Shown: piece after piece, positions 32,114-36,199 of the stretch | How positions within the stretch are numbered: position 1 is the stretch's first letter | Layout of the letters: each line of letters starts with the position of its first letter | Source of the DNA: Candidatus Microgenomates bacterium | GTDB lineage: Bacteria; Patescibacteriota; Microgenomatia; UBA8517 | Reading direction: 5' to 3' | Length of the DNA stretch: 44,742 nt | Assembly: GCA_016784385.1 (NCBI GenBank) | Contig: JADHUT010000006.1 | Location: 1-44,742, forward strand | Made by a program: the position numbers and the translations under genes | The notes under the pieces: generated by a model | Seen by the model: only the letters and a program-made list of their open reading frames with translations | Told to the model about the DNA's origin: nothing | Databases searched by the model: none

Positions 32114-32974
32114 ATGAATATTGGAATAATAGGTTGGGGATTTGTAGGGGAAGCCACGGGCACTGGCTTTTCAAAATCAAAAAAGAATAATGTTTTTTGG
32201 TTTGATAAATTCAAAAAAAGTCCAGACACTTTTGACGAAGTAGTGGAAAAGAGTGAGTTTATTTTTGTTTGTGTTCCAACTCCAATGCACAGAGATTATT
32301 CAGGAATGGACATGAGTATTGTCGAGGGGGTAGTGGAGCAAATTGCCTCAATGATTAGGGGCACTAAAAAGATATTAATTATCAAGTCAACCGCACTTCC
32401 AGGGACAACTGACAAATTTGCAAAAAAATATCCAAATGTAAATTTTGTAATGAATCCTGAGTTTTTAACACAGAAGAATGCCAAAGCCGATTTTTTGAAT
32501 CCCGCAAGAACCGTAATTGGAGCAAAAAACAAAAGTGTTGTAGATAGAATAAAAAAGCTTTACAAAACGATATTACCAAAGGATCATGAATACCACATTA
32601 CAGATACCACTAGCGCTGAGGTCATTAAATATATGAGCAATATAATGCTTGCTTCAAAAATACTGCTTGCAAATGAGTTTTACTTTTTAAGTAAAAAAGT
32701 AGGGGCAGACTACAACAAAGTCAGACGAGCTGTTGAAGCAGATCCAAGAGTGGGACCTTTCCTGAAAGTTCCAGGATGGGATGGAGACTTTGGTTTTGGG
32801 GGAGCATGTTTTCCAAAGGACACATTGGGAATACTCTCTTTTGCAAAGAAACAAAAAATTGACATGTCTGCACTAGAGGCTATTTGGAAGAAGAATCTTA
32901 AATTGCGAAAGACGAGAGACTGGGAAAAAATGGACAATGCTTTTGGTAGAGGTGCTTCAAAGAAAAAAAAGTAG
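32114..32974 (+). CDS. UDP-glucose/GDP-mannose dehydrogenase family protein (short, 286 aa)
   Basis: 'IGIIGWGFVGEATGTGF', 'FVMNPEFLTQKNA', 'GFGGACFPKDTLGI'. Confidence 0.85.
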   Translation: MNIGIIGWGFVGEATGTGFSKSKKNNVFWFDKFKKSPDTFDEVVEKSEFIFVCVPTPMHRDYSGMDMSIVEGVVEQIASMIRGTKKILIIKSTALPGTTDKFAKKYPNVNFVMNPEFLTQKNAKADFLNPARTVIGAKNKSVVDRIKKLYKTILPKDHEYHITDTTSAEVIKYMSNIMLASKILLANEFYFLSKKVGADYNKVRRAVEADPRVGPFLKVPGWDGDFGFGGACFPKDTLGILSFAKKQKIDMSALEAIWKKNLKLRKTRDWEKMDNAFGRGASKKKK

Positions 32975-34566
32975 CAATATTTGGTATAATATACTTGTTT
33001 AGCAAGGGCGCATAGCTCAGTGGTAGTAGCGCTGATCTTATAAGTCAGAGGTCCATGGTTCGATCCCATGTGCGCCCACCCAGAAAGAGTTGATGAGGTG
33101 GCGCAAGCCGCGAATGGCCACGCGGCGAGCGCCGAGAAGCCTGTTTTATACACACACGAAAGCTGCCGATTATTTAAAGAGTAGTCCGAGCCGACTTTTT
33201 TCCCGATTGAACAAAGTTCATCGGGATTATTTTTTGCGCGCGCGATTTTGGCCGTCGAAACGGCCACCTCTATGAATTCTCTCATTAGTCCGAGCCACTC
33301 ATTTCCGTTTTTAGAAACACTATTCATTTCCGCTTTTAATTTTATTTTCATTTCGACAAGTTTGTTCTTTTTGTCTTGGTAAACCTGAGGCTCAATTATT
33401 TGGTCAAGAAAGCCTTCAAGTAACCGATCAAGTTTTTGATCAGTTTCTGTAATCTGAGAAGAAATTTTAGAAATAGTAGTCTCACTATTTTCTTTTTGCT
33501 CTGTTTCTTCTTGGTCTAGTTTTTTCAACCAAGGTTTAACCCATGAAGTGGGTAAACTAGCTTTAGCAACAATTGTCCTCAATTGTTGTTCTAAAATTTC
33601 TTCTCTTAAATAGCCTTGACTACAATTTCCTTTCTTTTTAGTACAGCGGTAGTAAATATAGTTAACATCACCACGGGTGGTAGGGAAGCACTTGTGTTTG
33701 ACTTCTGCAGTTATTGAACAGCCACATTCGGCGCATTTGGCAAGACCAAGAAAAACAAAATTATGATTTCTAGGCTTCGGATGTTCTCTTGCCTCAAGTA
33801 TTTTTTGAACTTTATTGAAAACTTCAGGATCAATAAATAGTTTGTGGCTTCCTTCAAAAGTTTCACCGCCGAAGTTTATGATTCCAATGTAAAACTTATT
33901 ACTCAAAATCCTTTTAACTGTATCTAAATGCAACATTTTTCCATTGTATCTAGTGATTCCAAACTTTTGGAAAAATTTTGCAATATCAGCAAAAGAGTTT
34001 TCGCCATTGGCGAAAATCTCAAATGCTTTTCTGACGATTTTAGATTTTACAGGGTCAACTTCTATCGTCCTCAATCTTGGTTCATTTAGATAGCCATACG
34101 TAGCCTTGTTTGGCAGAACTCCCTTCCTTAGTTTTTGCCTGTTTCCTCTCTTTACATTTTCAGAAAGATTATCTACATAATATTTGCTCTGGGAAAATGC
34201 GATTGAAAGCATGAATTTGCCTTGCGGGGTGTTTTCAAACCAAAATGTGGGAAACTTTAGATCAATTATTTTCCCAGTATCTAGTAAATAGATAATCTTT
34301 CCTCCATCTATGGAGTTTCTTGCAAGCCTGTCTGCGTGCCAAGCCAAAATTCCATTTGTTTCACCTTTTTCAATTTTTTCTATTACTTGGTTAAAAACAC
34401 TTCTTCCTGGAATTTTGGCTGTTCTAGCCTCTACCAGAAATTCAGTAACATGCAATTTTTCTCTTACTGCAAATTCTTTTAACTCGGCAATTTGTGATTC
34501 GATGGACAAAACTTGTTTCTCTTTCTCATCTGTTGATTTTCGGCAGTAGGCAATGTATTTAATCAT
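32710..34566 (-). CDS. Large serine recombinase (resolvase/invertase type); frame stays open through repeat A and tRNA-Ile into the upstream gene
   Basis: Start MIKYIAYCRKSTDEKEKQVLSIESQ; 'ILAWHADRLARN', recombinase domain, zinc ribbon CAECGCSI...YRCTKKKGNC, coiled-coil. Homologous part ends near 33170; next in-frame stop at 32710. Confidence 0.85.
   Translation of the reverse strand: MIKYIAYCRKSTDEKEKQVLSIESQIAELKEFAVREKLHVTEFLVEARTAKIPGRSVFNQVIEKIEKGETNGILAWHADRLARNSIDGGKIIYLLDTGKIIDLKFPTFWFENTPQGKFMLSIAFSQSKYYVDNLSENVKRGNRQKLRKGVLPNKATYGYLNEPRLRTIEVDPVKSKIVRKAFEIFANGENSFADIAKFFQKFGITRYNGKMLHLDTVKRILSNKFYIGIINFGGETFEGSHKLFIDPEVFNKVQKILEAREHPKPRNHNFVFLGLAKCAECGCSITAEVKHKCFPTTRGDVNYIYYRCTKKKGNCSQGYLREEILEQQLRTIVAKASLPTSWVKPWLKKLDQEETEQKENSETTISKISSQITETDQKLDRLLEGFLDQIIEPQVYQDKKNKLVEMKIKLKAEMNSVSKNGNEWLGLMREFIEVAVSTAKIARAKNNPDELCSIGKKVGSDYSLNNRQLSCVYKTGFSALAAWPFAACATSSTLSGWAHMGSNHGPLTYKISATTTELCALAKQVYYTKYCYFFFFEAPLPKALSIFSQSLVFRNLRFFFQIASSADMSIFCFFAKESIPNVSFGKHAPPKPKSPSHPGTFRKGPTLGSASTARLTLL
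33006..33078 (+). tRNA. tRNA-Ile(TAT)
   Basis: GGGCGCA...TGCGCCC acceptor, anticodon loop CTTATAA, T-arm CCATG-GTTCGATC-CCATG; TATAAT at 32985-32990. Confidence 0.85.
33076..33168 (+). repeat. Inverted repeat A, left arm (93 bp)
   Basis: Identical over 93 bp to the reverse complement of 34614-34706. Confidence 0.95.
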
Positions 34567-34613
34567 GGTTTTTGTCTTTCTCAATTTTTGCATTTTCTTT
34601 TTTCTCTTTAATC

Positions 34614-34706
34614 CGGCAGCTTTCGTGTGTGTATAAAACAGGCTTCTCGGCGCTCGCCGCGTGGCCATTCGCGGCTTGCGCCACCTCATCAACTCTTTCT
34701 GGGTGG
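34614..34706 (-). repeat. Inverted repeat A, right arm (93 bp)
   Basis: Perfect reverse complement of 33076-33168. Confidence 0.95.
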
Positions 34707-34773
34707 ACTCTTTACGAACAAATTCGGACTGATTTCAAAAACGTATCGTCTTAGCTCCGACCCCGCTTCGCGT
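34703..34773 (+). repeat. Inverted repeat B, left arm (71 bp)
   Basis: Matches reverse complement of 36043-36113 with one mismatch; overlaps repeat A by GTGG (34703-34706). Confidence 0.95.
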
Positions 34774-35023
34774 TGGCTCTCCGCAAAAGTCGGCTCGGAC
34801 ACCGCCGTTAGGCGAAAAAGAAAAATGTAAAAATTGTTAATGTTCCTGTCTAAATTTAAATGGCGCATCCGGTGGAACCAACTAAGAATTGCTTCTTGTT
34901 GTCCGAATGCGCCATCAAAAAAAGCAATTCCTTTAAAAGTTGGTTCCAATTATTAATTTACGCTGTTTTATAAATATTTCAACTATGTTTTATTGAATCA
35001 ATCTTAGGCTATAATGTGTTTAC

Positions 35024-35980
35024 ATGGATAAATTTATTGACGAATCACGTAAGATTCAAGAAAGGTTTCCCAAAGAAGATCGTATAGAAGTTGGTAGTGA
35101 TGGTTGGCTTTCGCCGAAGGGAAATTACTACAAAGTCAAGCCAGACGAACACGATGAATCCGCCACTTATTTAACTTCTAACTCTGATGAAGTCAAAACA
35201 CTGGTCAAACAAACACTGGAGACATGGGATTACTACAGGTATCAAGATTTGAATGCCCGAGAAAAACTAGCAAAATTAGGATTTATTTTAATTCGTGGGC
35301 AAATTCTACGGTCTGAAGATGCAACAAATTTTACACCTGAGCAACTACAAAAGATTACAGAAGCAGGAATAAGAGTGATAAGTGCATTTGATGGAGCAGT
35401 TGACTATCCAACAAAAACAATATTGCAAAAAGTTACCTCAATCGCCGAAGGCATAGAAAAAGCTGATGATGTGGCAGATCTCCAAGCCCATCTCAACGAT
35501 TTAGAATTGGGCAAAGTGGGTCGTGCTTACGATGATCAATTTAGAGAAAAAACAATGAACGATATAAAAAGATTTGTAAGATCACCACTTAAAACAACAA
35601 TAAATGATAATCAGTTTTGGGATTCAAAAGGAAAAGAGCATGAGATTCTTTCGTCTGGTATTTTCGACTACTTATCACAAGGTTTTTTGGATGAGATGGA
35701 AATGGATTTAGGGAGATCTTTATATAAATTTAGGGTGATAGATTTTGGATCGTGTAAATTGTTAGTTCAAAGAGAGGAATATTACCATGATGGACTGTCG
35801 TGGGGTATGAGTGGAGATACTAATAATTATATTTCCATGTCTGTAGTTGATGAAAAATCAATTCGTCAAAAATTATCAAAACTTATAGGTGACAGGGGCA
35901 GCCTGTATAAAGATACTCCCAAGATAAAAACTGGATCTGGCGGTTATTTTTCTGAAGTTATTACAGACATTAGTACATAA
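35024..35980 (+). CDS. Cargo protein of unknown function (318 aa)
   Basis: Only long ORF between the B repeats; TATAAT (35010-35015) 8 nt upstream of ATG; no family recognised. Confidence 0.7.
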   Translation: MDKFIDESRKIQERFPKEDRIEVGSDGWLSPKGNYYKVKPDEHDESATYLTSNSDEVKTLVKQTLETWDYYRYQDLNAREKLAKLGFILIRGQILRSEDATNFTPEQLQKITEAGIRVISAFDGAVDYPTKTILQKVTSIAEGIEKADDVADLQAHLNDLELGKVGRAYDDQFREKTMNDIKRFVRSPLKTTINDNQFWDSKGKEHEILSSGIFDYLSQGFLDEMEMDLGRSLYKFRVIDFGSCKLLVQREEYYHDGLSWGMSGDTNNYISMSVVDEKSIRQKLSKLIGDRGSLYKDTPKIKTGSGGYFSEVITDIST

Positions 35981-36042
35981 TTTTTTAGTTCGGCGAAGCC
36001 GAACAAATCGCGCGCGTTCTGGCAAAAAAATAAGCGGAGGCC

Positions 36043-36113
36043 ACGCGAAGCGGGGCCGGAGCTAAGACGATACGTTTTTGAAATCAGTCCGAATTTGTTC
36101 GTAAAGAGTCCAC
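36043..36113 (-). repeat. Inverted repeat B, right arm (71 bp)
   Basis: 70/71 identical to reverse complement of 34703-34773. Confidence 0.95.
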
Positions 36114-36123
36114 TAAAGTAAGA

Positions 36124-36143
36124 CCTGCCTGCCGGCAGGCAGG
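36124..36143. repeat. GC-rich palindrome CCTGCCTGCCGGCAGGCAGG
   Basis: 20-bp perfect palindrome, related to 14883-14900. Confidence 0.65.
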
Positions 36144-36199
36144 GGTCCCTGGTGAATAACCCTCGTATGACGAGGTCGAATCCATGTGCGTCCACATAA

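Follow-up and report, generated by a model that had tools for sequence, protein, structure and literature searches.

A probable integrated element at tRNA-Ile in a Microgenomates genome, with a large serine recombinase gene that holds an attachment site in its 3′ end

Large serine recombinases (LSRs) follow two rules that matter for the locus described here: the motif read by their zinc domain lies 5 bp further from the crossover core in the attachment site of the mobile element (attP) than in that of the host (attB), and recombination between attL, the left site formed by integration, and attP does not occur with an LSR that lacks a directionality factor (PMC3783163). One report describes that a directionality factor, once fused to a serine integrase, controls its direction (PMC5737554). 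Self-disrupting recombinases are, according to a review, exclusive to Archaea (PMC8371274). We analysed a 44,742-nucleotide stretch of DNA from a Candidatus Microgenomates bacterium (contig JADHUT010000006.1 of assembly GCA_016784385.1), which we call the window; its host genome belongs to the Patescibacteria or Candidate Phyla Radiation (CPR) and measures 696 kb in 31 contigs. At the end of a tRNA-Ile gene, positions 33076-36113 hold a serine recombinase and one cargo gene. We put the probability at roughly 0.8 that this feature is an integrated element, that is, a chromosomally inserted DNA circle mobilised by an LSR that uses the 3′ ends of tRNA genes as attB.

The element has a computed excised size of 3,034 bp, and its attachment half-sites stand in the order tRNA-Ile(B)-O-P, recombinase, P-O-P′, cargo, P′-O-B′, where O is the crossover core. 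An intact attP, siteX, sits between the recombinase cassette and the cargo cassette. The features, including the open reading frames (ORFs), are as follows:

33006..33080, plus strand: tRNA-Ile(tat), the integration target, called by ARAGORN; its T-arm GGTTCGATCCC (33058-33068) is the proposed B half-site
33076..33079, plus strand: attL core O, CCAC, at the tRNA 3′ end; common to attL, siteX and attR
33076..33168, plus strand: left copy of the P arm (repeat A), a perfect inverted repeat; its minus strand encodes the C-terminal linker of the recombinase, with the frame open throughout
33184..33199, minus strand: block 2, which encodes the recombinase motif KKVGSD and is repeated in inverse orientation at 34785-34800
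33076..34566, minus strand: element-encoded part of the putative LSR, with its ATG at 34566 (Pfam domains, Foldseek, ORF list)
34614..34706, minus strand: second copy of the P arm (repeat A, on the side of siteX), which immediately precedes the recombinase leader
34614..34754, plus strand: spare inverted recombinase 3′ end in siteX, with the frame ...RQLSCVYKTGFSALAAWPFAACATSSTLSGW-TLYEQIRTDFKNVSS and a stop at 34752-34754
34703..34706, minus strand: siteX core O, GTGG (CCAC on the minus strand)
34703..34779, plus strand: P′ arm at siteX (left copy of repeat B), with a T-loop-like TTCGGAC at 34723-34729, its distance to the core exceeding that in the tRNA by 5 bp
34785..34800, plus strand: block 2 copy AAAAGTCGGCTCGGAC in the siteX tail; between it and the cargo gene comes a stretch that resembles the recombinase leader
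35024..35980, plus strand: cargo ORF of 318 aa, no assigned family (Pfam, PHROGs and PADLOC without match)
36037..36113, minus strand: far copy of the P′ arm (right copy of repeat B), an inverted repeat that forms the attR half
36110..36113, plus strand: attR core O, CCAC, the right end of the element; core common to attL and siteX
36114..36199, plus strand: host B′ flank; at about 36139-36197, immediately ahead of a TPR gene, it contains the 3′ half of a tRNA, displaced and degenerate

A first-pass annotation of this stretch had described two inverted-repeat cassettes, and its measurements held on recomputation. The pair it reported as a perfect 93-bp inverted repeat bracketing the serine recombinase (repeat A, 33076-33168 versus 34614-34706) is 93 nt long and 100% complementary. 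The second pair, which brackets one ORF (repeat B, best part 34703-34773/36043-36113), extends to 77 nt at 96% complementarity (34703-34779 versus 36037-36113), and the 16-bp outlier pair, GTCCGAGCCGACTTTT at 33184-33199 with its inverted copy at 34785-34800, matches at 100%. The 4-bp GTGG overlap of A and B at 34703-34706 is also real, and recurs as CCAC at both element ends (33076-33079 and 36110-36113). Since the tRNA occupies 33006-33080, the repeat A arm overlaps the final 5 nt of tRNA-Ile(tat). The shared GTGG is the crossover core; as an LSR core should, it stands unchanged at attL, siteX and attR. In tRNA orientation attL reads ...ATGTGCGC-CCAC-CCAGAAAG (B-O-P) and attR reads CGTAAAGAGT-CCAC-TAAAGTAAG (P′-O-B′), and siteX on the minus strand at 34703 reads CGTAAAGAGT-CCAC-CCAGAAAG (P′-O-P). 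These junction sequences are those that attP × attB integration would produce at both ends, with one intact inverted attP in addition in the middle of the element. Repeats A and B are the two halves, P and P′, of one attP and no pair of independent repeat systems. The computed circle has a 176-bp inverted repeat (97.7% identity) that divides it into two unique regions.

The layout recurs in relatives, which comprised 80 from a scan of species genomes plus loci from whole genomes (G numbers denote genomes and L numbers loci). Loci were picked by similarity to the window recombinase, and the frequencies hold for that clade; many counts for the tRNA side and the far side are lower bounds because contigs break at repeats. 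Repeat A, about 40-160 nt long, lies tight around the gene in 65 of the 73 related recombinases with enough flank. Repeat B, a conserved stretch outside the other A arm, is present in 48 unique elements, with an inverted copy 0.7-8 kb further on that is mostly 90-100% identical; the search for the same repeats around other cargo, which the first-pass annotation had suggested, is answered by these elements. In 44 of these 48 elements A and B adjoin at a core of 3-10 nt; in the others a mismatch or gap lies near the core. Cores are nearly always a tRNA 3′ end (CCAC, TCAC, GCAC, CAGC, CCGC, CGAC and others). When windows of equal size were drawn at random from related loci, 2 of 175 were flanked by an inverted pair 35 nt or more in length, which rules out a chance origin of the repeats. 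An assembly artefact, a doubt raised in that annotation, is ruled out by the same layout in closed genomes: two elements of CP011210 (L054), CP055308 (L106/L195), G007, G010 and G011. The notion of a modular integrated element beside tRNA-Ile, with recombinase and cargo cassettes sharing one junction, is supported.

Sites free of the element were also found. In G010, G015 and G028 the element-free order is a TraG-like gene, (UGD), tRNA-Ile(tat), a TPR or other gene, and Xer; in G028 (L180) a TPR homologue lies about 8 bp past the tRNA with no element. In the closed genome G061, of the same genus as G007, the target tRNA of G007 is 100% identical and empty, and the right flank is non-syntenic. 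The phylum was sampled with 287 genomes, 73 of which hold a match to the family at E ≤ 1e-100; this tally includes some relatives outside the clade.

A gene tightly bracketed by long inverted repeats, here of 65-160 bp, could also be taken for a transposon resembling an insertion sequence, with A as its terminal repeats, lying beside an unrelated insert bounded by B. The A and B arms, however, touch each other at the tRNA core; P′ shows homology from element to element, with its inverted partner at the far end; and the outer A arm is tied to the tRNA 3′ end, not to random sites. Such a transposon would carry its repeats at its outer ends and enter varied targets, whereas the inner A arm lies inside the element. 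Elements of repeat A and recombinase only, at varied non-tRNA sites with target duplications, were not found among the relatives, and we regard this explanation as highly improbable.

The recombinase has the Pfam domains Resolvase, Recombinase and Zn_ribbon_recom. In a Foldseek search with its AlphaFold2 (AF2) model, the best PDB matches were LSR integrases on attachment sites (9dxd, 9iu2, 9rah, 4kis; E 6e-19). The model shows long helices or a coiled coil past the zinc ribbon; its predicted template modelling score (pTM) is 0.33, so only the domain-level likeness to LSRs is used here. Judged by domain content and predicted fold, the protein appears to be an LSR or serine integrase.

Within the element the recombinase frame of the window is free of stop codons; it crosses the tRNA in antisense and ends at 32710, giving 618 aa. 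Frames are likewise stop-free inside the element in 72 of 74 related recombinases, running from the conserved C-terminal motif (block 2, KKVGSN..L) through the P arm and the core into the antisense tRNA. Excision or inversion of 33076-34706 in silico gives a 512-aa protein ending YEQIRTDFKNVSS, that is, ...STLSGW-TLYEQIRTDFKNVSS. It follows from this restored frame that the recombinase gene holds attP in its 3′ end and that siteX is a second, inverted copy of that end. Once the element is integrated, residues from the antisense tRNA take the place of the conserved C-terminus that P′ encodes; formation of the circle or inversion would restore it. The gene shares with suicidal integrases an attP within the integrase coding sequence and a product that is altered after integration; those of SSV type are tyrosine recombinases, whereas the enzyme here is a serine recombinase.

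Antisense-tRNA tails (of the DSNPRP, GLEPLTS and MGSNHGP types) are found at recombinase C-termini across CPR loci L033-L134; they arise because the elements integrate at tRNA genes and are not the element's own sequence. Behind the P′ arm of siteX (window 34782-34830; tails of L101, L108 and L077) stand short blocks with exact counterparts in the recombinase gene of the same element. Of these, block 2 corresponds to the C-terminal KVGSN codons and block 3 to the recombinase leader, and block 1 (TAKEPG motif codons) is present in a Parcubacteria-type subclade. The blocks match within an element and differ between elements, and are possibly a deleted gene copy or an antisense regulator.

The orientation of the elements is uniform. 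Among the 74 with a readable tRNA-side flank, the 3′ side of the recombinase faces the tRNA in all 60 that have a called tRNA, and the 5′ side in none; the A arm on the 3′ side begins in the last few nucleotides of the opposite-strand tRNA gene. This bears on the proposal in the first-pass annotation that each cassette flips independently, so that the recombinase would invert A-bracketed and B-bracketed DNA as a phase switch. Inverted sites do surround the serine recombinase, the arms are near-identical within each element, and the computed inversion of the A cassette yields the 512-aa recombinase. A switch of the Hin, Cin or shufflon kind should, however, be met in both orientations and here only one is seen, the siteX tail with its leader blocks adjoins the cargo start in most elements, and the required attL × attP reaction is one that LSRs without a directionality factor do not carry out (PMC3783163). 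We consider independent flipping improbable.

Recognition of the target can be followed in the attachment sites themselves. In 32 aligned elements the T-loop GTTCGAA of the tRNA (attB) occupies -18..-12 from the core, and GTTCGAA in P′ occupies -23..-17. The displacement is exactly 5 bp, as in the LSR rule, and is seen for one half-site only. We infer from this alignment that the recombinase reads the universal T-arm as its zinc-ribbon motif, which would account for one protein family using many tRNA isotypes; the 60 unique elements target tRNAs of 30 anticodon species. The P′ motif is also coding, with tails resembling [VL][YF]E.[IV]RT.F in 54 of 72 elements under a strict pattern. Its Arg codon is CGA in 40 of these 54 elements, compared with 16% of the Arg codons in those genes, and the third base of the Thr codon that follows is free (ACT, ACG, ACC or ACA). 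Because CGA is in excess at the Arg position while the Thr codon varies, the motif is constrained both as DNA and as peptide.

In a tree of 110 recombinases all repeat-bearing ones fall into one clade with 100% support and scattered losses; L194 (38% identity) lies inside the clade yet has no repeat. More distant relatives, most of them at 28-38% identity, are without repeats. Since most of these distant relatives likewise sit at a tRNA 3′ end and read into the tRNA, the tRNA overlap seems older than the second attP. The clade spans many CPR candidate phyla; bins assigned to Marinimicrobia, Omnitrophota, Bdellovibrio and Sulfuricaulis also contribute entries, which may reflect transfer or contigs placed in the wrong bin. 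Within an element, divergence is 1-4% for the P copies (first 60 nt) and 0-8% for the P′ copies, as against 50-73% at the same positions between elements. Divergence within elements being so much smaller, the two copies either evolve jointly or are remade in every cycle.

The tree also speaks to stepwise accretion of the two cassettes, an idea of the first-pass annotation, and to the related reading that an autonomous and a non-autonomous element entered one tRNA, nested or in tandem. Tandem insertion does occur at other tRNAs (in L101, and in L108, where a second element contributes its P arm as the far flank), and displaced tRNA 3′ halves lie at tRNA-Ile(tat) in relatives. At the window locus, however, A and B are halves of one attP, and the layout is inherited as a unit in the fully supported clade. 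Accretion would have had to repeat itself in identical A+B order and orientation across many candidate phyla, and we think it very unlikely.

The 318-aa cargo protein of the window has no family in Pfam, PHROGs or PADLOC and no PDB sequence match; weak partial relatives occur in two genomes only, and its single-sequence AF2 model, at a predicted local distance difference test (pLDDT) of 36, is unusable. Across the relatives, cargo cassettes measure 0.7-8 kb and hold from zero called genes to about seven. The 96 cargo proteins include N6/N4 and C5 DNA methylases, NgoPII and HinP1I endonucleases, an EcoRI-type methylase, Vsr, a ThsB-like TIR protein, OLD/AAA proteins, LexA-like regulators, transporters, enzymes and orphans. 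Cargo is homologous in just 5 of 34 element pairs whose recombinases are 80-90% identical in DNA; the cargo is modular.

By analogy with LSR biology, the recombinase would join the attP at site Y of the circle to the attB of the tRNA, reading the T-arm as its zinc-ribbon motif, and attL × attR excision would release a circle of 3,034 bp that bears two inverted attP sites and encodes the recombinase at its full length of 512 aa. Less certainly, integration through site Y may switch the recombinase off or alter it, an effect that may fix the element in one orientation, and siteX may keep an intact 3′ end as an operator and/or as a spare tail from which the full-length gene is rebuilt. SiteX could be read in three ways, as operator, as spare tail or as a means of amplification as in the 2-micron circle, and we favour the first two as a pair. 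SiteX lies between divergent genes and is intact only after integration through site Y; if it is an operator, recombinase bound to it could keep both genes low. Were siteX used for integration instead, the operator would be lost while the gene stayed full-length, and integrants of this kind might be short-lived; the operator reading would also account for the single orientation. As a spare tail, siteX would allow inversion of the recombinase cassette to rebuild the 512-aa gene in place. We tentatively sketch, as possible rather than probable, a serine "suicidal integrase" with a way back. Integration would remove the C-terminal tail, silencing the enzyme or changing its direction, with an inverted spare tail and attP carried along. 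Inversion of the A cassette, by homologous recombination or by the enzyme, would then rebuild the gene and trigger excision as a double-attP circle, spreading defence and other cassettes between CPR tRNA genes.

The predicted circle also invites comparison with an episome of 2-micron type, in which the two inverted attP sites would serve inversion and copy-number amplification. The yeast 2-micron plasmid replicates autonomously and encodes the tyrosine recombinase Flp, which acts on identical, mutually recombining FRT sites. A division into two unique regions by a long inverted repeat is what such an episome would have, but no replication gene was recognised in the one-ORF cargo, the relative orientation of recombinase and cargo is fixed, and no free circle was found in the plasmid, phage and IMG/VR collections searched. 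An amplifying episome seems unlikely to us.

Several points weigh against the integrated, LSR-mobilised element that we prefer. The missing free circle counts here as well: plasmid and phage collections held no close relative (all below 60% identity, the matches listed being at 23-29%), and IMG/VR gave only two partial matches. In the alignment that reveals the T-loop shift, the host half-site B′ has weak A-richness and lacks a clear consensus. The empty-site comparisons run between genera or across non-syntenic right flanks. Mismatches between the copies within an element have no codon-position bias (26/21/26 in P, 4/5/6 in P′), so translation of the siteX copy is unsupported; this lack is as expected if each integrated copy drifts neutrally. 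Finally, siteX and site Y are near-identical, and an unbiased circle should integrate both ways. One orientation is seen, and selection against the other is assumed.

Further observations concern the surroundings of these elements. Three more recombinases of the same clade are present in the window's own genome (L115, L116 and L117, on contigs C25, C18 and C13), all of them no more than about 300 nt from the end of their contig, a position that fits an assembly broken by the repeats. Displaced degenerate tRNA 3′ halves lie downstream of tRNA-Ile(tat) in the window (36139-36197) and in L179, L174 and L176, L179 having a tandem pair; they resemble scars left by other elements that cut in or near the anticodon loop. 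tRNA-Ile(tat) is an integration hotspot across the family. In L108 and L101 the host flank on the far side belongs to a second element, being either its P arm with the end of its recombinase or its block 2 region, which amounts to tandem accretion at one tRNA. L036, L034, L059 and L033 have degraded, truncated or rearranged ends, some with other inverted pairs of about 100 nt inside.

Such an element would be a widespread mobile-element type in Patescibacteria/CPR, where gene-transfer machinery is poorly known; a paper on a closed Microgenomates genome reported zero mobile elements. In the literature searched, which covered few subscription papers and is weak evidence on this point, we found no description of tRNA-targeting serine recombinase elements or of a double attP in CPR. 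The layout explains an annotation puzzle, the antisense-tRNA tails (...DSNPRP, ...GLEPLTS, ...MGSNHGP) on recombinase frames. It would also offer, for direct testing, an integrase that disrupts its own gene yet is neither archaeal nor a tyrosine recombinase, and LSRs that read the universal T-arm could serve genome engineering at tRNA genes.

Compared with known systems, the element shares with the yeast 2-micron plasmid a circle, predicted here, that is cut by two inverted sites into two unique regions, one of them with the recombinase, whereas Flp, FRT × FRT recombination and autonomous replication are 2-micron features of which none has been demonstrated for the element. As in the integration-dependent immunity of mycobacteriophage BPs, attP lies in a reading frame and integration alters the C-terminus of a protein, which is the repressor there and the recombinase here (PMC4557955). 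With the phage-type large serine integrases (A118/LI, Bxb1, PhiC31, SPbeta) it has in common a protein of resolvase, recombinase, zinc-ribbon and coiled-coil parts, the logic of attP, attB, attL and attR, and the 5-bp motif shift between attB and attP (PMC3783163). It differs from them in apparently targeting the tRNA 3′ ends of many isotypes through the T-arm, in having attP inside the 3′ end of the recombinase gene, in retaining a second inverted attP after integration, and in its size of about 2-10 kb with no phage genes recognised. The nearest described analogue would be the archaeal suicidal tyrosine integrases of SSV type (SSV1, pTN3, pT26-2), in which attP likewise lies in the integrase gene and integration at a tRNA splits or alters that gene (PMC8371274). 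Unlike these, the element described here is bacterial and uses a serine recombinase, only the C-terminal tail is swapped, and a spare inverted 3′ end is carried along.

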